Positions 6,613 to 18,252 of a DNA stretch of 38,453 nucleotides are shown piece after piece. Both the position numbers and the translations under genes were made by a program. Within the stretch, counting starts at the first letter, position 1. The number at the start of each line of letters is the position of its first letter. The notes under the pieces are model-generated. The model saw only the letters and a list, made by a program, of their open reading frames with translations. It was not told the origin of the DNA and ran no database searches. The DNA lies in assembly GCA_947378235.1 (NCBI GenBank), contig CANCJE010000009.1, forward strand, positions 1 through 38,453. The letters are read 5' to 3'. Source of the stretch: Caulobacteraceae bacterium (GTDB lineage: Bacteria; Pseudomonadota; Alphaproteobacteria; Caulobacterales; Caulobacteraceae).

Positions 6613-6659
6613 TGGTGCCGCTTAGGTGACTCGAACACCTGACCCCCGCATTACGAATG
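6613..6659 (-). repeat. att direct repeat, left copy (tRNA-Thr 3' fragment)
   Basis: These 47 bp are identical to 18177-18223, which is the 3' part of the tRNA-Thr(CGT) gene from the CCA end back through the anticodon loop. Homology to the tRNA stops at 6660, so this is the displaced chromosomal 3' end and not a functional gene. It marks the left junction of the integrated element. Confidence 0.93.
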
Positions 6660-6845: not shown

Positions 6846-8132
6846 ATGCCTAAGCTGAGCAAATTTAAAATCACGAAAAGATCGGTTGAGGCTCTGCCCA
6901 CCAGCAAAGATGTGACCTTTCGGGATTCGGAGCTGAAGGGCTTCGCGATCAGGACGAAAACGAGCGGCACGAAGATTTACCTGGCGATCTATCGCAATGC
7001 TGAGGGGCGGACCCGCTCCTATGCGCTTGGAACCCACGACCCGCTTTCCGCCGATGAGGCGCGCAAATTGGCAAAGGCGGCGCTGGCAAAGGTGGATGCG
7101 GGAGGCGATCCTGCGGAGCAACGTAAGCTCGATCGAGAAGCCATCACCGTCGCTGAACTTTGCATCATGTTTCTCAAGGATCTCGAAAGCGGAAAGATCA
7201 CCGGAAGAAAGGGTGCCAAAAAGAAGCCTGAGGCGATCGTGTCTGAAAAGGGCCGGATCAATCGCCACATCGTTCCCCTGCTGGGCAAGACAAAGGTCCG
7301 GGATCTGAACCAAGCCAAGATCAAAGCCTTCATGCGGGCCGTGACCGACGGCAAGACTGCCGTCGATGAAAGGGTCGGATACAGGGCGCGCGCCATCGTC
7401 AAGGGCGGAGCTGGCGCTGCCTCTCGATCATTCGGAACATTGGCGGGGTTGATGGCCTATGCGCTCGACCGCGATATTATCAGCGTCAGTCCGTGCCGTG
7501 GCATGAAGGTGAAGCAGGGCGAGCCCCGCAAGGTTCGCCTTGATCCCGATCAATACCGCGCCCTTGGTGACGCGCTCACTGCATCAGATGCCGAAGGTGA
7601 AACTTGGCAAGCCGTCAAAGCCTTTCGCCTATTGGCGCTAACAGGGTGTCGCCTGAATGAGATCGGCCATCTCAAATGGAGTGAAGTCGATATAGACGGA
7701 CAGGCCTTGCGGTTAGCGGACAGCAAGACCGGAGCCAGCATTCGGCCTATAGGGTCTGAGGCCGTCAGCTTGTTGTCTGAACTGTCTAGGTCCAGCGACC
7801 ATGTCTTTCCGGCCCTTCGGGTGAAGAAGCAGCCCTACGGCGGCTTGGCGAAGGCGTGGGCGCGTATCTTAGCAAGAGCCAAGGATGGGGACGCGGATAG
7901 GCTTGCGGGCCTCACACCCCACAGCCTGAGACACGCCTATGCTTCGGTCGGCGGCGATTTGGGCCTGTCCGAACTGACCATTTCGGCACTGCTCGGCCAC
8001 ACCGCTGGAGGCGTAACACGACGATATGTCCATCATCTGGATGCGGTTTTGATTGCGACCGCAAATCGGGTCTGTGAGACCATAGCCTGTCAGATGGCCG
8101 GGACGATCACGAACGGTGACGGGGTGGAATAG
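6846..8132 (+). CDS. int: Tyrosine recombinase / integrase with DUF4102 arm-binding domain
   Basis: Catalyses site-specific integration and excision at the tRNA-Thr site. The 428-residue product has an N-terminal DUF4102-type arm-binding domain (FRDSELKGFAIR, then SYALGTH.PLSADEARK), a central core-binding domain and a C-terminal catalytic domain. Catalytic residues visible are Arg269 (TGCRLNEI), His359 and Arg362 (HSLRH), His385 (LLGHT) and the nucleophile Tyr394 (TRRYVHH). The start at 6846 (MPKLSKFKITKR) matches family N-termini. The open frame from 6777 would run through the arm repeat and was rejected. It reads inward from the left junction. All catalytic residues are present, so it looks active. 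Confidence 0.95.
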   Translation: MPKLSKFKITKRSVEALPTSKDVTFRDSELKGFAIRTKTSGTKIYLAIYRNAEGRTRSYALGTHDPLSADEARKLAKAALAKVDAGGDPAEQRKLDREAITVAELCIMFLKDLESGKITGRKGAKKKPEAIVSEKGRINRHIVPLLGKTKVRDLNQAKIKAFMRAVTDGKTAVDERVGYRARAIVKGGAGAASRSFGTLAGLMAYALDRDIISVSPCRGMKVKQGEPRKVRLDPDQYRALGDALTASDAEGETWQAVKAFRLLALTGCRLNEIGHLKWSEVDIDGQALRLADSKTGASIRPIGSEAVSLLSELSRSSDHVFPALRVKKQPYGGLAKAWARILARAKDGDADRLAGLTPHSLRHAYASVGGDLGLSELTISALLGHTAGGVTRRYVHHLDAVLIATANRVCETIACQMAGTITNGDGVE

Positions 8133-8691: not shown

Positions 8692-9009
8692 ATGCCAAAT
8701 CCGCTTGATGGCGCGGTTGAACAGTTGCGCCCCGCACCGCGCCCCATGAGACGAGCAGAGGCTTCAAAATATCTGTTCGAGCAGCACGGCATTATGCGTG
8801 CGCCCGCAACGCTCGCAAAGCTTGCCTGTATCGGCGGTGGACCACGGTTTCAAACTGCGGGCCGCTTCCCCCTCTACCGACAGGAGGAACTGGATCTCTG
8901 GGCCGCGTCGATTTTGTCGCCTCTGAAATCATCGACCACCGACAGTGGGCAAAAGCGGGACAAACATCATGGCCGCCTGACCGATGGGGAGGGCCGCGCC
9001 CATGGTTGA
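8692..9009 (+). CDS. AlpA/excisionase-like HTH protein
   Basis: Small DNA-binding protein, 105 residues. The middle reads RRAEASKYLFEQHG....PATLAKLACIGGGPRF, then an R-FPLYRQEEL tail. That is the usual layout of MerR/AlpA-type helix-turn-helix proteins carried by integrated elements. The start at 8692 has AAGGA 7 nt upstream; the longer frame from 8608 crosses the hairpin region. It is the first gene of a tightly coupled three-gene module and overlaps the next gene by 8 bp. Expected roles are excision directionality or activation of element genes; which one cannot be told from sequence. Confidence 0.75.
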   Translation: MPNPLDGAVEQLRPAPRPMRRAEASKYLFEQHGIMRAPATLAKLACIGGGPRFQTAGRFPLYRQEELDLWAASILSPLKSSTTDSGQKRDKHHGRLTDGEGRAHG

Positions 9010-9247
9010 AATGCTCGCCTTTCCCCCGTCAAGACGGGTCGGTCTGATCCGTAAACATGGACGTATCGCGGCTCAACTCAATAGCAGTTCCGCAACCTCC
9101 CACCTACGCTACCAGGTCGAAATTCAGCGCCGCGCCTTAATGTCAAAGGGTGTCGCCCGGGCGGTGGTGGACCGAGAATGCGCCGCGCTTCTCGCCGCTC
9201 TGTACGCGGAGATGTTTCGTCAAGGCGCTATGCCGGAGGTGGGCTGA
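9002..9247 (+). CDS. Small DUF6074-like protein
   Basis: 81 residues starting MVEMLAFPPSRRVGLIRKHG, with the pattern [FP]P..RR...IRKH, then a helical region with HLRYQVEIQRRAL...GV. This resembles the DUF6074 family found on rhizobial and other alphaproteobacterial elements. Its function is unknown. It starts inside the end of the AlpA-like gene and its stop (TGA 9245-9247) overlaps the ATG of the next gene, so translation is probably coupled. The family call is from memory of its pattern and is moderately sure. Confidence 0.65.
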   Translation: MVEMLAFPPSRRVGLIRKHGRIAAQLNSSSATSHLRYQVEIQRRALMSKGVARAVVDRECAALLAALYAEMFRQGAMPEVG

Positions 9248-9717
9248 TGGCAAACCGACACAATAAGACGGGCCGCTCGGCGAGCGGGCCACCCTTCGTG
9301 CAAATCCACCACCATCTGTTGGACAGTCTGGCTGGGTGCTCCCTGACCCCTCCGGCGGTGGCAGTCTATCTTAGGCTTGGGCGTCTTTATAATGGATCAA
9401 ATAACGGCAGCTTGGGCCTGTCGGTTCGTGCGGCAGCCGAGCACGCCAACATTGCAAAAGACACGGCAGGGCGAGCGCTTAAGGAACTCCAAGCAAAGGG
9501 CTTCATAGAGATCGTGATACAGGGAGCCTATAGCGTTAAGCTGAGGCACTCCACTGAATGGCGCCTGACCAACTTCCGTTGCGATGTGACGGGATCCCCG
9601 CCCACCAAAGCCTTCATGAAATGGCGACCGGCGCAAAAATTGTCGGTCCCAAATGACGGACAGGTCGGTCCTAAAGTAAGGACACGAAAGCCGGACTTGC
9701 GCACGACAGCGGCATAA
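9247..9717 (+). CDS. Winged-helix (HTH_36-like) protein, candidate replication initiator or regulator
   Basis: 156 residues. A long central winged-helix domain is seen: LTPPAVAVYLRLGRLY, then LGLSVRAAAEHANIAKDTAGRALKEL as the helix-turn-helix, then GFIEIV with a beta wing (YSVKLRHSTEWRL). The C-terminal tail is basic. The start overlaps the previous stop as ATGA at 9247. Two iteron-like repeats lie inside the last part of the gene and two just after it, an arrangement seen with Rep proteins and their origins. No primase or helicase domain is present, so if it starts replication it must recruit host enzymes. A plain transcription regulator is the alternative. Confidence 0.65.
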   Translation: MANRHNKTGRSASGPPFVQIHHHLLDSLAGCSLTPPAVAVYLRLGRLYNGSNNGSLGLSVRAAAEHANIAKDTAGRALKELQAKGFIEIVIQGAYSVKLRHSTEWRLTNFRCDVTGSPPTKAFMKWRPAQKLSVPNDGQVGPKVRTRKPDLRTTAA

Positions 9718-9778
9718 CTGTCCTTATATTGGGACCTAACGGCGTCAAAAATCCAATCATCGGTCCCAAATGACGGCA
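9645..9778. repeat. Four iteron-like 17-bp repeats (candidate origin or operator)
   Basis: Copies: GGTCCCAAATGACGGAC at 9645-9661; GGTCCTAAAGTAAGGAC at 9667-9683, exactly 22 bp later; GGTCCCAATATAAGGAC on the minus strand at 9720-9736; and GGTCCCAAATGACGGCA at 9762-9778. The consensus is GGTCCYAAnnnAnGGAC. The 22-bp tandem step puts the first two on the same DNA face. The AT-rich gap between copies 2 and 4 could be an unwinding region. The first two overlap the 3' end of the winged-helix gene. Confidence 0.75.
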
Positions 9779-9825
9779 CACATATAGATCTAACCACAGG
9801 GTAGTGACACGTCTCTGCCCAATGA

Positions 9826-9898
9826 TGCCCGGTAGCTCAATTACGGCAGAGCATTTCGCCTCGGCGAAAATATGCGGGTTCGAGTCCCGTCCGGGAAA
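9826..9898 (+). tRNA. tRNA-like sequence with a 6-nt anticodon loop (atypical or pseudo-tRNA)
   Basis: A full cloverleaf can be drawn: acceptor TGCCCGG/CCGGGAA with one G-A mismatch, T8 A9, D-stem GCTC/GAGC, anticodon stem TTTCG/CGAAA, T-stem GCGGG/CCCGT with the standard TTCGAGT loop. The anticodon loop is CCTCGG, six bases and lacking U33, and its outer CC/GG can pair to extend the stem. The 3' end is ACCT, not ACCA. The identity cannot be assigned (CTC or TCG are the nearest readings). It is either a decayed tRNA or a tRNA mimic; it lies 48 bp after the last iteron. Confidence 0.6.
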
Positions 9899-9952
9899 CC
9901 TTCTGCCCTCCCCCAACATCGATCGTGGATTGCCGAACCCTGAGGTTACGGC

Positions 9953-10663
9953 ATGAGCCAACCTGTGAGATCATCCATGCCCAAGAAACCTCGAGAGGCC
10001 CCAAACTCCCTCTCAGTCCTTCGAGACCCCACACCCAAAGAGGCGGAAGTCCTTTCAGCGGCGGCAGCAAGCTATAGGCGCCGAACACCTCGGCTAAAGG
10101 TCGAGACAAGGACTGCGGACAAGGTCACGACCATTGGCCCGCCGCACTCTGATCGCGATGGCTTTTACCTCGCCCTGAAGGATGCGTTCGGGACCACCAG
10201 TTCAGACTTCATGATGGAGGCCGTTACCGGGCTTTCAACGGTCCTACCAAGACGACCAGAGGGGCACGGTGGGACCAATGCCGCCGTCGCCATGATGCAG
10301 GCCATAGGGCCGCAAAATGAGCTAGAGGCCGCCGTGGGCCTGCAGATCATTGCCACGCACAATCTGGCCATGGATTCGATGGCGAGGGCCTTTACAGCAA
10401 CGCACCAAGAGGCGCGCGACCGGTTCGTGTCGCAATCGACCAAGCTCTCGCGCACCATGTCGGCACAGCTAGACAGCCTCATAAAACTGCGCGGCGGTGG
10501 TCGGCAGATTGTCGAGGTCAAGCACATCTATGTGAATGGCCCGGCGGTGATCGGCGACCGCAATCAAACCTTGGTCACCGCCTCTACGCCACCTCCTGAC
10601 GCTGAACCCCTAGGGACAGGCCAATCAAGGGGGGGCGGGGATGAGCCAACAAACCAGCATTAA
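9953..10663 (+). CDS. Hypothetical element protein
   Basis: 236 residues, not recognised as a named family. The N-terminus is basic and proline-rich. The middle (residues about 65-180) looks alpha-helical, with AMMQAIGPQNELEAAVGLQIIATHNLAMDSMARAF. The C-terminal part has VEVKHIYVNGPAVIGDRNQ, a beta-rich pattern with VNG.A.IG that I recall from other alphaproteobacterial element proteins of unknown role. The ATG at 9953 has GAGG 7 nt upstream, better than the internal ATG at 9977. It overlaps the next gene by 23 bp, so they form one unit. Confidence 0.7.
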   Translation: MSQPVRSSMPKKPREAPNSLSVLRDPTPKEAEVLSAAAASYRRRTPRLKVETRTADKVTTIGPPHSDRDGFYLALKDAFGTTSSDFMMEAVTGLSTVLPRRPEGHGGTNAAVAMMQAIGPQNELEAAVGLQIIATHNLAMDSMARAFTATHQEARDRFVSQSTKLSRTMSAQLDSLIKLRGGGRQIVEVKHIYVNGPAVIGDRNQTLVTASTPPPDAEPLGTGQSRGGGDEPTNQH

Positions 10664-10916
10664 CCCCATGGAGGCGAGACTTTTAAACCTCAGCTTGGCC
10701 CATAGCGCCCCTCGCTGTCTGGCCAAAACGCGGGCTGGAACGCCCTGCCAAGCCGCCAAACTCTACGGCAAGAAACGCTGCCGCCTCCACGGTGGTGCGA
10801 GCGCAGGCGCACCGCGTGGGCAGCGTCATGGCCGCTACAGGCACGGTCTACGGACCATCGAGACCCAAGCGCTTTTAAGGGCTGTCAGAACGCTTCTGAG
10901 GGGCTGCAAGGACTAG
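10641..10916 (+). CDS. HGGxSTG-like small protein
   Basis: 91 residues with CLAKTRAGTPCQAAKLYGKKRCRLHGGASAGAPRG in parts: two cysteines around a TRAGTPC motif, then C.LHGG.S.G. This is the pattern of the small HGGxSTG-type proteins common on phages and islands; the role is unknown and the conserved Cys/His set suggests metal binding. The tail is arginine-rich. The start has a GGGGCGGGG purine stretch upstream and lies within the end of the preceding gene. Confidence 0.75.
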   Translation: MSQQTSINPMEARLLNLSLAHSAPRCLAKTRAGTPCQAAKLYGKKRCRLHGGASAGAPRGQRHGRYRHGLRTIETQALLRAVRTLLRGCKD

Positions 10917-11163: not shown

Positions 11164-14100
11164 ATGGCTGATCCCTTCTTCGAAAAGCCAATTCTTAACT
11201 CGCCCTATGCCCCACCAAGGCTCCATTGGGAGTTGGATGAGGATAGGCAGCCGACGAACCGTATTATCGAAGAGCGTAGACGGTCGAACCTCATCACACC
11301 GGTCCCGAAGCCAACCAAGCGGCGTCAGAACGCCAGTCAGGGCTCGCTCGCGCTTGGTGGCAACGACGGGGTTTCCACAGAGGAACAGGAATATAACCCC
11401 ACACCGATCATCAATGAGGTTCGAACCTACGTCGAAACTTGGCGCAATCTTCCCAACTCCGATCAGTGGCTCGTCTCGCCGGAAACCACGCGCCTACTAA
11501 AACATTGGCGGCATCACTCGTTTGACAAACTCCGCCCGTTCTTCTGTCAGATCGAGGCGGTAGAGACGGCCATCTGGCTCGTCGAGGTTGCACCAAAGCT
11601 TGGGCCAAGGGTCGGAAAGTTCTGGAAACATATCAAAGGCGGCAACGCACAGGCCAATCCTGAGCTTCTTCGGTTGGCCCTGAAATTGGCGACTGGCGCG
11701 GGCAAGACCACCGTCATGGCCATGCTGATTGCGTGGCAGACGATCAACGCCGTGCGGCATCCCAACAGCAAACAGTTTTCTCGCGGATTCCTAATTGTCG
11801 CGCCGGGCATCACCATTCGCGATCGTCTGCGTGTCCTGATCCCCAACGATCCCGAGAGCTACTACAAGCACCGCGAAATTGTACCACCCGACATGCTGGC
11901 GGATATCGACCGCGCCAAGATCGTCATCACCAACTATCACGCCTTCAAACTGCGCGAGCGCTTGGAGGTTGCCAAGGGCACGCGAACGGCGATCGAAGGA
12001 TGGCGCGGCGAAAAGCTGCAAACCCTCGAAACCGAAGGCCAGATGCTTCAACGCGTCATGCCTGAACTGATGGGCACGAAGAACATCGTCGTTCTGAACG
12101 ATGAGGCGCACCATTGCTATCGCGCGCGGGTCCAAGGTGCGACAGGCAAAACGGCTGAAGACCTGACGGGCGAGGAAAAGGCAGAGGCACAAAAGAACAA
12201 CGAAGCCGCGAGAATGTGGATCTCCGGGCTCGAGGCCGTGAAGCGCACCATGGGCATCTCTCTTGTCTACGACCTTTCCGCAACGCCATTCTTTCTGCGG
12301 GGATCAGGCTATGCAGAGGCAACCCTATTTCCCTGGACGATGAGCGATTTCTCTCTGATGGACGCCATTGAGTGTGGGATCGTGAAGCTGCCGCGCGTGC
12401 CGATTGCCGACAATGTGCCAGGCGGGGATACGCCAAAATTCAGGAACCTTTGGGACCATATCGGTAAGAAGCTGCCGAAGAAGGGGCGCGCCGCTGCGGG
12501 GTCACCTCTCGATCCTTTAAGCCTGCCGGTGGAATTGCTGACCGCGCTTGAGGCCCTCTATGGCCACTACGAACAGACCTTCGCGCTGTGGAAGGATCAG
12601 GGCATGGGCGTCCCGCCGGTGTTCATCGTTGTTTGCAACAACACATCAACCTCCGAGCTGGTCTACAAGTACGTGTCCGGCTTCCATCGAAAGGTTGATG
12701 CCAAAACGCCCACGCTGGAGCACGGGCGGCTGCCCCTATTTCGAAACTATGATGAGCTTGGCAATCGCATAGGCCGCCCGAACACAATCCTAATCGACAG
12801 CGCGCAACTTGAGTCTGGCGAGGCGCTGGACGCGGAGTTTCGAGCCCTCGCCAACGAAGAGATCACTCAATTTAGGCGTCAACTGGTCGAGCGGACAGGC
12901 GACATCCATGCTGGCGAAAACATCGACGACGCCAAGCTGCTGCGCGAAGTCATGAACACCGTCGGACAGAAGGGCAAACTTGGCGAGCAGGTGCGCTGTG
13001 TGATCTCGGTCTCGATGCTTACTGAGGGCTGGGACGTCAATAACGTCACCCATGTGCTCGGGGTCCGAGCCTTTGGCACCCAACTGCTCTGCGAACAGGT
13101 CATCGGTCGCGGTCTACGCCGCTATTCCTATGACCTGAACGAAAAAGGCCTGTTCAATGTCGAATATGCGGATGTACTCGGCATCCCGTTCGATTTCGCT
13201 GCAAAGCCGGTAATTGCGCCGCCGACCAAGCCGCTCGAAACCGTTCGCGTCCATGCCATAAAGCCGGATCGCGACGCGTTAGAGATTACCTTCCCTCGCG
13301 TTGAAGGCTATCGGGTCGAGTTGCCCAATGAGCGGCTGGAGGCCAGGTTCGGTCCCGACCATGTGCTCGAGCTAACACCGCATTTGGTTGGCCCGTCAGA
13401 GACCACAAACCAAGGCATTATTGGTGAGGGCATCAATCTGACGATTGCCCATCTGCAGGACATGCGGGCCTCGGCCATTCTCTATCACCTCACCCGTCAC
13501 CTGCTGTTCAACAAATATCGCGACCCCGGCGAGGAGCCGAAGCTCCACCTGTTTGGCCAGTTAAAGCGGATCACCCGACAATGGCTCGAAGGCGGGTATC
13601 TCAGATGCACGGGCGGCACCTATCCGGCCCAAGTGATTCATAACGACATTGCCAACATGGCCACAGAACGGATCAAATCCGCCATCACCGAGACATTGGT
13701 CGGCGATCGACCCGTCAAGGCGATCTTGGATGCCTACAATCCGACCGGTTCGACGGCCTATGTGAACTTCACCACCTCCAAAGAAACACGTTGGCAAACC
13801 GATCCGCGCAAGAGCCATGTCAACTGGGCCATATGCGACGGTGATTGGGAGGCGGAGTTCTGCCGTGTCGTAGAGGCCCATCCCAAGGTGCGGGCCTATG
13901 TGAAGAACCAGAGCCTAGGCCTGGAAGTGCCCTATCTGATGGGCTCAACACCCCGAAAATATATCCCCGATTTCGTCGTCCAGGTGGATGACGGCAATCC
14001 CGATCCGCTGAACCTGATCGTCGAGATCAAGGGCTATCGCGGCGAGGACGCCAAAGAAAAAGCCAACACCATGCGCGCCTACTGGGTTCCAGGCGTGAAC

Positions 14101-14211
14101 AACTTGGGCAAGTTCGGGCGCTGGGCCTTCGCCGAATTCACCGTGGTCTATGAGATCGAGACCGATTTCAACTGGCTGATCGACTCCCTGCAAACGGCGC
14201 GCGCGGCATGA
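11164..14211 (+). CDS. Type III-like restriction enzyme, helicase-nuclease subunit
   Basis: 1,015 residues. It would translocate or switch on DNA using ATP and cleave it when unmodified sites are met. The superfamily 2 helicase core is complete: Walker A ATGAGKTT (about 176-183), DEAH in LNDEAHH (about 313-316), a SMLTEGWDVNNV block (about 615-627) and motif VI QVIGRGLRR (about 644-652). The C-terminus carries a PD-(D/E)XK nuclease: IPDF (Asp about 935) followed by VEIKGYRG (Glu/Lys about 953-955). It resembles the BPTD_3080-type restriction endonucleases. First gene of the operon, 28 bp before the DUF4268 gene. All key residues are intact. Confidence 0.9.
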   Translation: MADPFFEKPILNSPYAPPRLHWELDEDRQPTNRIIEERRRSNLITPVPKPTKRRQNASQGSLALGGNDGVSTEEQEYNPTPIINEVRTYVETWRNLPNSDQWLVSPETTRLLKHWRHHSFDKLRPFFCQIEAVETAIWLVEVAPKLGPRVGKFWKHIKGGNAQANPELLRLALKLATGAGKTTVMAMLIAWQTINAVRHPNSKQFSRGFLIVAPGITIRDRLRVLIPNDPESYYKHREIVPPDMLADIDRAKIVITNYHAFKLRERLEVAKGTRTAIEGWRGEKLQTLETEGQMLQRVMPELMGTKNIVVLNDEAHHCYRARVQGATGKTAEDLTGEEKAEAQKNNEAARMWISGLEAVKRTMGISLVYDLSATPFFLRGSGYAEATLFPWTMSDFSLMDAIECGIVKLPRVPIADNVPGGDTPKFRNLWDHIGKKLPKKGRAAAGSPLDPLSLPVELLTALEALYGHYEQTFALWKDQGMGVPPVFIVVCNNTSTSELVYKYVSGFHRKVDAKTPTLEHGRLPLFRNYDELGNRIGRPNTILIDSAQLESGEALDAEFRALANEEITQFRRQLVERTGDIHAGENIDDAKLLREVMNTVGQKGKLGEQVRCVISVSMLTEGWDVNNVTHVLGVRAFGTQLLCEQVIGRGLRRYSYDLNEKGLFNVEYADVLGIPFDFAAKPVIAPPTKPLETVRVHAIKPDRDALEITFPRVEGYRVELPNERLEARFGPDHVLELTPHLVGPSETTNQGIIGEGINLTIAHLQDMRASAILYHLTRHLLFNKYRDPGEEPKLHLFGQLKRITRQWLEGGYLRCTGGTYPAQVIHNDIANMATERIKSAITETLVGDRPVKAILDAYNPTGSTAYVNFTTSKETRWQTDPRKSHVNWAICDGDWEAEFCRVVEAHPKVRAYVKNQSLGLEVPYLMGSTPRKYIPDFVVQVDDGNPDPLNLIVEIKGYRGEDAKEKANTMRAYWVPGVNNLGKFGRWAFAEFTVVYEIETDFNWLIDSLQTARAA

Positions 14212-14239
14212 ATGGGGCAGCGATGAGGGGCATGGCTTG

Positions 14240-15166
14240 ATGGAGATCGGGACATTGACGTCGGTAGAGCCGCGCGCGGTCTGGCAGCACGAAGCCCATA
14301 ACTTCACGCCATGGCTCGCAGCACAGATTGATCGGCTGGGTGAGGCCATTGGCGAAGACCTAGAGGTCTTGGGTTCCGAAATGGCCGTCGGTCCCTTCTC
14401 TGCAGACATTGTCGCGCGCAACCGGCTTAATGGTCACACGGTGCTGATCGAGAACCAGCTCGAAAAGAGCGACCATACCCACCTTGGCCAGATCCTCACC
14501 TACCTTGCCGGGCTGGAAGCCAAGACCGTCGTTTGGGTCTCGACGCGGTTTCAGGAAGAGCATCTGTCGGCCATACGCTGGCTGAACGACCACACGCCGC
14601 CGGACTATAGCTTCTTCGCCATCGAGTTGCGGGTGGTGCGGATTGGCGACAGTGCCGCCGCGCCGATCTTCGACCTTGTTGCACGCCCCAATCTCTTTGA
14701 ACGCAATCTGAAGGTCCGGAAGGCAGAGGCCTCGGGCCCGGTGGACAGCCGACTGCGGGACTTCTGGGACCTCTATATGCAGCGCCATCCCGAAGATGCA
14801 GCCATCGGGATGAAGGTCTGGAACACCACCAATGTTTGGCTTTCCGTTGGCGACGGGCTCATCCTCGGGGCCTATCTGACTAAAAGCTGCGGCGTCTATG
14901 TTCGTGGCCAATCGTCGGTGCCCATCGGGGCGGTGATCGAACAGCTTGAGCCCCATAGGCAGCAGCTCGAAGATCAAACTGGCGCGGTTTTTGGACAGGG
15001 CGAAGCGAACCGGATACTGGCGCTGGCAGGTCCCGCCTTCGGTGATCCGACCACCTGGGACGAAGCAGCCGATTGGCTGCATGGCCAGCTACACCGCCAT
15101 TTTGATGCCCTGCGCGGCGTTCTGGACAGCCGTCCAGCGGCTGAAATGACCTTGGGTACCCCGTGA
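14240..15166 (+). CDS. DUF4268 protein, PD-(D/E)XK-like, between res and mod
   Basis: 308 residues. The N-terminal half has FSADIVA (Asp about 55), then HTVLIENQLEKSDHTHLGQILTY in parts (IENQ at about 69-72), the signature of a PD-(D/E)XK-like fold with ExQ in place of ExK. The C-terminal part from about residue 175 matches the DUF4268 pattern (LRDFWDLYMQRHP). The ATG at 14240 is preferred over the TTG at 14237; GAGGGG lies upstream. The stop overlaps the mod start by one base, so it is a stable part of the restriction operon. Possible roles are a specificity or nuclease accessory, or an additional defence effector. Confidence 0.8.
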   Translation: MEIGTLTSVEPRAVWQHEAHNFTPWLAAQIDRLGEAIGEDLEVLGSEMAVGPFSADIVARNRLNGHTVLIENQLEKSDHTHLGQILTYLAGLEAKTVVWVSTRFQEEHLSAIRWLNDHTPPDYSFFAIELRVVRIGDSAAAPIFDLVARPNLFERNLKVRKAEASGPVDSRLRDFWDLYMQRHPEDAAIGMKVWNTTNVWLSVGDGLILGAYLTKSCGVYVRGQSSVPIGAVIEQLEPHRQQLEDQTGAVFGQGEANRILALAGPAFGDPTTWDEAADWLHGQLHRHFDALRGVLDSRPAAEMTLGTP

Positions 15167-18078
15167 TGACCAAAAAGCCCATCGCTGTAGAAACCCTCAA
15201 GCACGACGGCTCGACGCGCCTCAATATCCCGACGGCGGAATTTGAAAGCGTGATGCGCGAGGAGGACAAGACACCGGTTCAGTTAGCCTACCAGCGCCGC
15301 AATCGCGATCTGGATCCGCAGCTCGTCTGGCGCGGTAAGGAGGAGCAGGACGGGTCCGATCTGACCGTCCAGGCACCGCCGCTCTATATTCAGGAAAAGG
15401 TCCACCCCAAGGTCATTATCGATGATCTGAAGCGCGAGGCCAAGAAGCGCGCCGACGAGACCGTGCCGCCACCGCTCGATCTGTTCGCCGACTTCAACGG
15501 GCTAAAGGACAGGGAAGCCGCAACCGAATTTTACCAGCACGACCAGCACTGGTCGAACCGGATGATCTCAGGCGACAGCCTGTCAGTGATGGCCAGCCTA
15601 GCCGAGCGCGAGGGCCTGCGCGGGCAGGTGCAGTGCATATTCGTTGATCCACCCTACGGCATCAAGTTCAACTCGAATTTCCAGTGGAGCACGACCTCGC
15701 GCGACGTGAAGGACGGCGCGAAGGATCAGATCACGAGGGAGCCGGAACAGGTTCGCGCCTTTCGCGATACGTGGCGCGACGGCATCCACTCGTATCTGAC
15801 GTATCTTCGCGACCGGCTGACGGTCGCGCGCGATTTGCTTCACGAGAGTGGGAGTATCTTCGTCCAGATCGGCGATGAGAACGTGCATCGCGTCCGGACG
15901 GTGTTGGACGAGGTGTTTGGGGACGAAAATTTCATTGGTCAAATTACTGTTCAAACGACATCTGGTTTTCTGACTAACACGCTGGGAAACATGTCTGATT
16001 TTGTTCTTTGGTATGCCCGATCCAAGGAGAAAGTGAAGGTTCGCCCACCATTTTATCGAAAGGACTTTGAGCTGGGTGAAGGCAACGCGCGTTGGCTGAT
16101 GTTCGACGACTTTAGCTACCGTGGTGTCAGTGCCGCTGAGAAGCGAGGTGAAGTTGCTCCTCCTCAAAATGCTAAGCCATACAAGCCGGATAACATTATT
16201 TCGCAAGGAAGAGCCAAGGAGCCTCAGCCGTTCAAGTATTTTGGCCGTGTGTTTGATACTTGGGCTAAAAATTCGCACTGGAAAGCAAATTTTCCTGTTG
16301 GAATGAACCGCCTTGCTTGGGCAGGTCGTATCCACGAGGCCGAAAACTCGATTCAGTACGTGCGCTACCATACGGATTTCGATGTCGCGGTTCACGGAAA
16401 TATCTGGACTGACACCGGGACGGGAAACTTCACCGACGACAAGGTTTATGTTGTTCAGACAAACACCAAAGTAATCGAACGCTGCATCCTCATGACCACG
16501 GACCCCGGCGACCTGGTTCTAGACCCCACCTGCGGTTCGGGGACTTCAGCGCATGTCGCCGAGCAATGGGGGCGGCGCTGGATCACCATCGACACCAGCC
16601 GGGTGGCCATCGCTCTGGCCCGGTCGCGCCTTATGGGTGCGCGCTATCCATACTATCTCCTCGCCGACAGCCCGGAAGGGCAGCGCAAGGAAGGTGACGT
16701 GATGCGCTCCGCGCCCAAGACGACACCGACGCGCGGGGATATCCGCCATGGCTTCGTCTACGAACGCGTACCGCACATCATGCTGAAATCCATCGCTACC
16801 AATGCGGAGATCGATGTCATCTGGGAAAAGCGCCAGCCGGCGGTGGACGTCGCGAGGCACCAGCTCAACGCCGCGCTGAAGGGTCACGGCATCCCGTTCA
16901 AGGTCGAGACCGGCGGCCGCGCAGGCGCGAAGATCGACTTCACCGCCGTAGGCGAGGTCAAGCTCCCTTCCGGCGAGATGGCGCCTACGAATGGTTTCTT
17001 GGAATGGGAAGTCCCTCTTAAGGCACCCGACGCGTGGTCATCCCCAGCAAAGGATGCGCTCTCGGCCTTCTGGGAGGCCCGCATCGCGCGTCAGAAGGAA
17101 ATCGATGCCTCGATCGCCGCCAAGGCCGAGTTCGAATATCTCTACGACAAGCCCTATGACGACAAGAGCCGCGTCCGGGTAGCCGGTCCCTTCACAGTTG
17201 AAAGCCTCTCGCCCCATCGCACGCTGGCGGTTGATTGGAACGACGAGCTGGTCGATCTGCTCGAAGCTGCTGAAGGCAAGCGCAAGGCGGTGGATAAGGG
17301 GGACGTGGTCTCGGACTTCGCGCAGATGATCCTTGAGAATCTCAAGGTGGCGGGCGTGCAGCAGGCCCATAAGGAGGACCGGATCAGCTTCACCTCTCTG
17401 ATCGGCTGGCCGGGGGACCATATCTGCGCCGAGGGCACCTTCATGGAGGGTGATAGGCAAAGGCGAGCAGGCATCTTTATCGGTCCTGAATTTGGCACCG
17501 TCCCGCGCGCCGATCTGGTCGCGGCGGCGAAGGAATGCGGGGACGCGGGTTTCGATGTGCTGATCGCCTGCGCCTTTAACTATGACGCCCGGTCCGCCGA
17601 GTTCGACAGACTAGGCCGGGTGCCGGTGCTCAAGGCCCGGATGAACCCCGATCTGCATATGGGCGCGGACCTCAAGGCAACAGGCGCGGGCAACCTGTTC
17701 GTGATCTTCGGCGAGCCCGACATCAAGATCGAGGAGGCTGGCGACGGCCTGATCCGCGTGAAGGTCTTCGGCGTCGATGTGTTCAAGCCCCAGACCGGCG
17801 AGGTCATTTCAGAAGGCACAGACGGCATCGCGCTATGGATGCTCGACACCGACTATAATGAGGAAAGCTTCTTCGTCCGCCACGCCTATTTCCTCGGCGC
17901 CAATGACCCCTACAAGGCCTTGAAAAAGACCCTGAAGGCCGAAATCGATCAAGACGCCTGGGACAGCCTCTATTCTGACACCTCCCGCCCATTCGCAAAA
18001 CCTACCAGCGGTCGGATCGCCGTAAAGGTCATCAATCACCTGGGCGATGAAGTCATGAAGGTGTTTGGGGTGGAGTGA
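15166..18078 (+). CDS. Site-specific DNA methyltransferase, type III Mod-like (beta class)
   Basis: 970 residues, long for a Mod subunit. Motif IV DPPYGI (about 161-166) precedes motif I DPTCGSGTS (about 453-460), the order of beta-class N6-adenine or N4-cytosine methyltransferases; DPPY favours adenine. The target-recognition region lies between the two motifs (about 250-430) and its DNA is clearly more AT-rich than both flanks, suggesting exchange. The C-terminal 450 residues are an additional region seen in long type III-like Mods. The ATG at 15166 was chosen over the GTG at 15163 and overlaps the DUF4268 stop codon. Last gene before the right end. Confidence 0.9.
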   Translation: MTKKPIAVETLKHDGSTRLNIPTAEFESVMREEDKTPVQLAYQRRNRDLDPQLVWRGKEEQDGSDLTVQAPPLYIQEKVHPKVIIDDLKREAKKRADETVPPPLDLFADFNGLKDREAATEFYQHDQHWSNRMISGDSLSVMASLAEREGLRGQVQCIFVDPPYGIKFNSNFQWSTTSRDVKDGAKDQITREPEQVRAFRDTWRDGIHSYLTYLRDRLTVARDLLHESGSIFVQIGDENVHRVRTVLDEVFGDENFIGQITVQTTSGFLTNTLGNMSDFVLWYARSKEKVKVRPPFYRKDFELGEGNARWLMFDDFSYRGVSAAEKRGEVAPPQNAKPYKPDNIISQGRAKEPQPFKYFGRVFDTWAKNSHWKANFPVGMNRLAWAGRIHEAENSIQYVRYHTDFDVAVHGNIWTDTGTGNFTDDKVYVVQTNTKVIERCILMTTDPGDLVLDPTCGSGTSAHVAEQWGRRWITIDTSRVAIALARSRLMGARYPYYLLADSPEGQRKEGDVMRSAPKTTPTRGDIRHGFVYERVPHIMLKSIATNAEIDVIWEKRQPAVDVARHQLNAALKGHGIPFKVETGGRAGAKIDFTAVGEVKLPSGEMAPTNGFLEWEVPLKAPDAWSSPAKDALSAFWEARIARQKEIDASIAAKAEFEYLYDKPYDDKSRVRVAGPFTVESLSPHRTLAVDWNDELVDLLEAAEGKRKAVDKGDVVSDFAQMILENLKVAGVQQAHKEDRISFTSLIGWPGDHICAEGTFMEGDRQRRAGIFIGPEFGTVPRADLVAAAKECGDAGFDVLIACAFNYDARSAEFDRLGRVPVLKARMNPDLHMGADLKATGAGNLFVIFGEPDIKIEEAGDGLIRVKVFGVDVFKPQTGEVISEGTDGIALWMLDTDYNEESFFVRHAYFLGANDPYKALKKTLKAEIDQDAWDSLYSDTSRPFAKPTSGRIAVKVINHLGDEVMKVFGVE

Positions 18079-18176: not shown

Positions 18177-18223
18177 TGGTGCCGCTTAGGTGACTCGAAC
18201 ACCTGACCCCCGCATTACGAATG
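18177..18223 (-). repeat. att direct repeat, right copy (within tRNA-Thr)
   Basis: Exact match to 6613-6659. It runs from the CCA end of the tRNA to one base past the 5' side of the anticodon region, so crossover probably falls in or near the anticodon loop, as is usual for tRNA-targeting integrases. Confidence 0.93.
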
Positions 18224-18252
18224 CGATGCTCTACCGGCTGAGCTAAAGCGGC
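18177..18252 (-). tRNA. tRNA-Thr (anticodon CGT), att site
   Basis: 76 nt including encoded CCA. The acceptor GCCGCTT/AAGCGGC is a perfect 7 bp; the D-stem GCTC/GAGC, anticodon stem GCATT/AATGC around loop with CGT, and T-loop TTCGAGT are all normal. It reads ACG codons. Its 3' 47 bases equal the left junction copy, so the element restored the gene on integration by supplying its 3' part. Confidence 0.95.

Follow-up and report, generated by a model that had tools for sequence, protein, structure and literature searches.

The stretch of DNA analyzed here, 38,453 nucleotides of a Caulobacteraceae contig (referred to below as the window), contains an island of 11.6 kb bounded by perfect 47-bp direct repeats of tRNA-Thr(CGT). 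The genes and DNA features of the island that matter for this study are collected in Table 1. Among the island proteins scanned, none was recognized as a primase, a replicative helicase or a phage structural protein. The cargo at positions 11164 to 18078 comprises a ResIII-type protein of 1015 amino acids, a protein of 309 amino acids that matches no Pfam family and an N6/N4 DNA methylase of 971 amino acids; this cargo is probably a type III restriction-modification system. The island also encodes an HGGxSTG domain protein at 10641 to 10916 (NCBIfam NF041373).

Table 1. Features of the island and of the element at the end of the winged-helix gene, in window coordinates
Feature	Position	Strand	Evidence
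attL, 47-bp repeat of the 3' portion of tRNA-Thr(CGT)	6613-6659	-	Perfect direct repeat with 18177-18223
Tyrosine integrase, ATG start inferred	6846-8132	+	Pfam Phage_integrase 6e-17, Arm-DNA-bind_3 1.8e-13
Putative AlpA/excisionase-like small protein	8692-9009	+	Groups with HTH_17 proteins of related islands; no Pfam match of its own
DUF6074 protein, recurrent neighbor in islands and phages	8984-9247	+	Pfam 1.5e-10
Winged-helix protein, 156 aa, proposed replication initiator	9247-9717	+	AF2 model, RepA_N-first fold and profile ranking, PHROG replication initiation families
A-tract AAAAATT, just 5' of site 1	9635-9641	+	Many loci are A-rich ahead of the first site; AT content rises locally at -170/-160
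Site 1, in gene	9645-9661	+	Exact GGTCCYAANNNANGGAC match
Site 2, in gene, 22 bp from site 1	9667-9683	+	Exact GGTCCYAANNNANGGAC match
Site 3, 3' of stop codon	9720-9736	-	Exact GGTCCYAANNNANGGAC match
Site 4	9762-9778	+	GGTCCYAANNNANGGAC with 2 mismatches
Terminal box, proposed melting/entry element; TATA 9783-9786, CCA 9794-9796	9779-9797	+	CCA and AT peak across loci; box pattern retrieves the family
attR within intact tRNA-Thr(CGT) 18177-18252	18177-18223	-	tRNA prediction and 47-bp repeat

An earlier note on this DNA had described three direct copies and one inverted copy of a repeat straddling the end of the winged-helix gene. Our motif search of the window recovered all of them in place, well above shuffled sequence; three copies match GGTCCYAANNNANGGAC exactly, and the fourth is imperfect, with GGCA in place of GGAC. 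With as many as 2 mismatches allowed, 8 matches were counted across the window, where shuffled sequences averaged 1.5; none of 100 shuffles reached 8, and only the four at the gene end are clustered. In the rest of the 2.8-Mb genome, GGTCCYAANNNANGGAC occurs as scattered single matches with 1 mismatch each and nothing more. Copies 1 and 2, which lie within the gene, are 22 bp apart, just as had been reported for the tandem pair, while copies 3 and 4 lie past the stop codon, giving center spacings of 22, 53 and 42 bp along the array. Because every copy is itself a near-palindrome of 17 bp (GTCC-N8-GGAC), the inverted copy, although truly present on the minus strand at 9720, is less special than it seems. 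The earlier description also missed the A-tract upstream and the conserved box downstream, and the element as a whole is a composite of about 165 bp made up of an A-tract, four 17-bp near-palindromic sites and a short AT-rich box ending in TACCA or AACCA.

The AF2 model of the 156-amino-acid protein has a mean pLDDT of 83. In the Foldseek search, RepA_N initiators occupied ranks 1 to 4, with weak scores (E of about 0.004, TM of about 0.45) and with MarR-type regulators following closely; separately, a sequence profile placed 4pt7, 4pql and 5kbj on top, again weakly (E of about 9e-4). When 15 family members were compared with PHROG, 13 matched a replication-initiation family, 11 a DnaD-like loader family and 2 a transcription regulator. 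The earlier statement that the protein bears no known Rep family signature is therefore to be corrected, since distant ones do exist in the RepA_N and O-like PHROG matches. In Pfam, the window protein matched neither Phage_rep_O, the O-like PHROG similarity being N-terminal only, nor RepA_N (PF06970), which is also absent from the 25 families listed for 24 members. HTH_36 (PF13730) gave 19.7 bits for the window protein, below the curated cut-off of 25, and was matched by 16 of 24 family members at E<=0.01. As for a C-terminal primase-binding domain, the window frame ends in the array, and longer frames at other loci show no recognizable domain. A loose pattern places a PTxxWxxW-like peptide after the winged-helix domain in 23 of the 31 members; the peptide is a candidate for a contact site.

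Within the order, 16 of 200 genomes encode a homologue, and across the Pseudomonadota a profile search at E<=1e-8 identified the family in 31 of 399 sampled genomes, 15 of the 31 lying outside the class (the window's own genome is included in both counts); a scan of genome contigs with the single protein as query gave a weak match only. By comparing 21 neighborhoods, we found that 16 share an integrase, often together with an HTH_17 protein, and that the other side is variable cargo. The 50,697 phage records of INPHARED contain one member, vB_Pae_U1, a 16-kb satellite-like record in which the gene is annotated as "replication protein O." Judged from these occurrences, mobile islands of many Pseudomonadota appear to share the module with some phages. 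The earlier assignment to integrated elements thus fits the window, where the module sits in an integrated island, but phage contigs carry it too.

One such contig (G582, 31 kb, the same as L130) encodes TerL, portal, lysozyme, integrase and tail-type genes, and a scan of part of its open reading frames gave no DnaB match. Its site sequence is confined to the one cluster in the 31-kb contig, and a regulon was rejected on this ground. Among 40 contigs with a related terminase, the winged-helix gene is present in two, L130 and L160, both of which have the array. Ten open reading frames picked by large size upstream of related terminases in other contigs comprised 3 DnaB, 3 Toprim/AAA, 2 ResIII/DEAD-type helicases, 1 DUF3987 and 1 methylase. 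This pattern is consistent with a swap of one replication module for another.

A de novo repeat search, blind to the consensus of the earlier note, showed that most loci have an array where the gene ends. Among the box-anchored loci, 26 of 31 exceeded all 25 shuffles and 5 did not, and the array was not detected in several of 29 further loci, a few of which also belong to the first set. Homologues without such repeats nearby had been named as an observation that would refute the reading; a minority are of this kind, and most carry the repeats in the same geometry. Relative to the box, site starts cluster near -150, -128, -104, -74 and -31, and the spacings of about 22, 32, 43 and 54 bp are multiples of one helical turn, which puts the sites on one face of the helix. 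The 91 same-orientation distances of the box-anchored loci gave a Rayleigh R of 0.78 at a period of 10.6 bp, the nominal p value of which is not to be taken at face value because the loci share ancestry and all pairs per array were counted. In the second set of 29 loci, on which the period was not chosen, 43 distances gave an R of 0.73, with p of 6e-7 for one distance per locus, a value to which shared ancestry still applies. Chance repeats were rejected, since the match count is far above shuffles and the arrays recur at homologous loci.

The site sequence differs widely between loci while the geometry is kept, examples being GGTCC...GGAC in the window, GGTACAG-AAA-CTGTACC in Pseudomonas, ACGGTTACCGTGAGCGT, GTCATGAAAACCGTGAC and others. 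Co-variation of the repeats with the recognition helix, the other check that had been suggested, was borne out in part: site distance follows protein-domain distance (Mantel r of 0.30, p of 0.001) and is only weakly related to recognition-helix distance (r of 0.135, p of 0.05). The stop codon lies as far as about 166 bp upstream of the box in some loci and as far as about 173 bp downstream in others, and the array geometry stays unchanged; therefore, the constraint acts on the DNA and not on the protein. We also rejected the idea that the repeats are simply the DNA trace of a C-terminal protein motif, as the geometry is the same inside the frame, across the stop codon and beyond it. An A-rich stretch often lies 5' of the first site. 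The gap of about 25 bp between the last two sites contains, in many loci, a recurrent CGTCAGcG or AnGGCC-TTTT-like sequence.

Beyond the last site, the DNA is AT-rich over a short distance, includes TATA and continues into TACCA or AACCA. The CCA hardly varies among 31 loci, partly by construction because these loci were selected for such a sequence, and the AT peak lies directly before it. The AT fraction climbs to 0.63 over about 20 bp only, and the AT-rich box of about 13 bp is short for a melting region. An independent test of the box is the scan of IMG/VR with the pattern GGACACATATAN{2,5}TCTACCA, which retrieved 6 contigs, all 6 with the gene just upstream; 4 of them are new and distinct, L089 and L091 having the same gene and L093 being the contig of the already known L009. 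A second box pattern, CCTATANNNNTATACCATANG, matched 11 viral contigs, none with the gene, which is about chance level by estimate.

Several known systems resemble parts of this arrangement. Phage lambda O is a winged-helix initiator with four iterons within its gene, an AT-rich stretch alongside and a C-terminal domain for the P-DnaB loader; sites within the gene, a short AT-rich box beside the array and O-like PHROG matches recall this design in the window, whereas a P-like partner gene was not recognized here. The RepA_N initiators of pSK41 and pTZ2162 and the PLE RepA, like the window protein, have a winged-helix N-terminal domain of similar size. In pSK41 Rep, the four Rep boxes bound by this domain lie within the rep gene, the origin encodes the linker, and the C-terminal domain of the 319-amino-acid protein binds DnaG primase (PMC5703833); in contrast, the reading frame of the present module stops within the origin or close to it, and a C-terminal primase-binding domain is not recognizable. 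The pPR9 Rep has a PF13730-type DNA-binding domain that is related to a phage replication protein and supports autonomous replication (PMC5703833), but it keeps the pSK41-type C-terminal domain, and the window protein is below the PF13730 cut-off. The PLE RepA of Vibrio is a satellite initiator with iterons and without predicted primase or helicase activity, and no replication takes place without the helper phage (PMC7145576); by analogy, initiators of this kind may depend on a helper.

Satellites of the PICI, PICMI and P4 types carry an integrase, an AlpA-type protein and a replication gene with iterons 3' of the gene (PMC6092414), and they encode a primase or primase-helicase (PMC6092414, PMC10803314). 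They are likewise small islands, some with phage-interference genes, and set against this scheme, the window island has the integrase and a presumed AlpA, while a primase or helicase was not recognized beside the module or among the other island proteins scanned. The alphaproteobacterial initiator RepC of repABC also has its origin within its own gene, but RepC is larger, at about 400 amino acids, and its origin includes a large AT-rich region and lacks iterons (PMC3155836).

On the evidence of sequence and modeled fold, we think it likely that the 156-amino-acid protein is a single-domain winged-helix initiator of the 11.6-kb island and that the array is its replication origin. The reading of a Rep protein and its origin, offered in the earlier note, is supported by the apparent replacement of replication genes in related phages and by the RepA_N and O-like matches. 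By analogy, the best explanation is a design like that of pSK41 Rep or lambda O without a recognizable helicase- or primase-recruiting domain; compared with pSK41 Rep, the protein would correspond to the DNA-binding half and the origin-encoded linker, with no C-terminal domain. Protein dimers would bind each site, and four or five occupied, phased sites would form a wrapped nucleoprotein complex, as in pSK41 Rep or lambda O. This complex would then open the AT-rich box adjoining the last site, where the helicase and primase of the host or of a helper phage may enter. Because no helicase, primase or loader domain is recognizable, recruitment would go through the winged-helix domain, the PTxxWxxW-like peptide or a helper. 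Ahead of transfer, the island would excise by means of its integrase, form a circle at the tRNA-Thr repeat and multiply. Counting against the initiator reading is that characterized initiators have a recruitment domain and the window protein is without one; so do the weak fold and profile scores with MarR-type regulators close behind, the homologues lacking an array above shuffles, the short box with its TATAAT-like hexamers and the weak correlation of recognition helix and site sequence.

The same protein and sites could also be a transcription activator and its single large enhancer-promoter, with phased sites upstream, the last site over the -35 position and a TATAAT-like -10 element in the box, which would switch on the cargo or the later phage genes. 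The box indeed reads TATAAT or a near variant in several loci at a constant distance from the last site, the array lies between the early genes and the downstream genes, and MarR-like folds are among the structural matches. However, the distance between the nearly invariant CCA and the TATA varies by about 4 bp, which is unusual in promoters, and a promoter scan gave no sigma-70-type match at the box. There is also one cluster per genome, with no second target found, most of the database families matched are initiators, and the module occupies the place of the replication genes in related phages, so we regard a pure activator as rather unlikely.

The two functions might be joined if the protein switched on transcription through the box and this transcription activated the origin. 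Such a scheme would combine an initiator-like protein with a promoter-like box and has a precedent in the transcriptional activation of replication in phage lambda, but nothing in the data requires it, and we hold it to be quite improbable. It seems hardly credible that the sites serve autoregulation, incompatibility or silencing without origin function, or that they are a packaging or recombination site. The sites do lie in and beside the gene of the presumed binding protein, but at its 3' end, a long way from the promoter of that gene; the site pattern terminates in a box that gives it a direction, and no terminase or recombinase is linked to the array.

Beyond the window, the chances appear about even that the initiator and origin proposed here represent an undescribed and widespread class of replication modules in islands and temperate phages of Pseudomonadota. 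Such a class would combine a one-domain initiator of about 120 to 160 residues with a rigid origin (an A-tract, four or five phased palindromes that drift with the protein, and a TATA-TACCA box) and would recruit the host replisome without a helicase-, loader- or primase-binding domain. We found no description of the module in open-licence papers. If the proposal is true, one geometry would serve to recognize and delimit the origins of many anonymous defense islands and phages and would explain how they multiply, and the module would be among the smallest protein-plus-origin systems and a tool for defining the minimum requirements of a replication start. The differing site specificities at fixed spacing suggest many mutually compatible replicons.

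Some further observations concern the surroundings of the module. Just past the box, the island has a tRNA-like gene at 9826 to 9900 on the plus strand (Rfam tRNA, 43.5 bits), which is single copy in the genome; ARAGORN assigns no anticodon, and the loop of the predicted anticodon arm has 4 nucleotides, not 7. It is possibly a decoy, a remnant attachment site or a tRNA mimic, and it was set aside as an origin part since the other loci read by eye have none at that place. GC-rich hairpin-like sequences (GCGCGGCGCGG...) lie 50 to 200 bp after the box in loci L013, L014, L018, L019, L027 and L050, possibly a structured RNA or a single-strand initiation site. In L014, L020, L050, L052 and L062, the next gene after the array is a recurrent small one whose product starts with MGGxGSG or similar. 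DUF6074 lies before or after the module in the window (8984-9247), L029, L089, L092 and L160, the call being confirmed by Pfam in the window and L092, taken from annotation in L029 and made by eye in L089 and L160, and it is a possible functional partner of the module.
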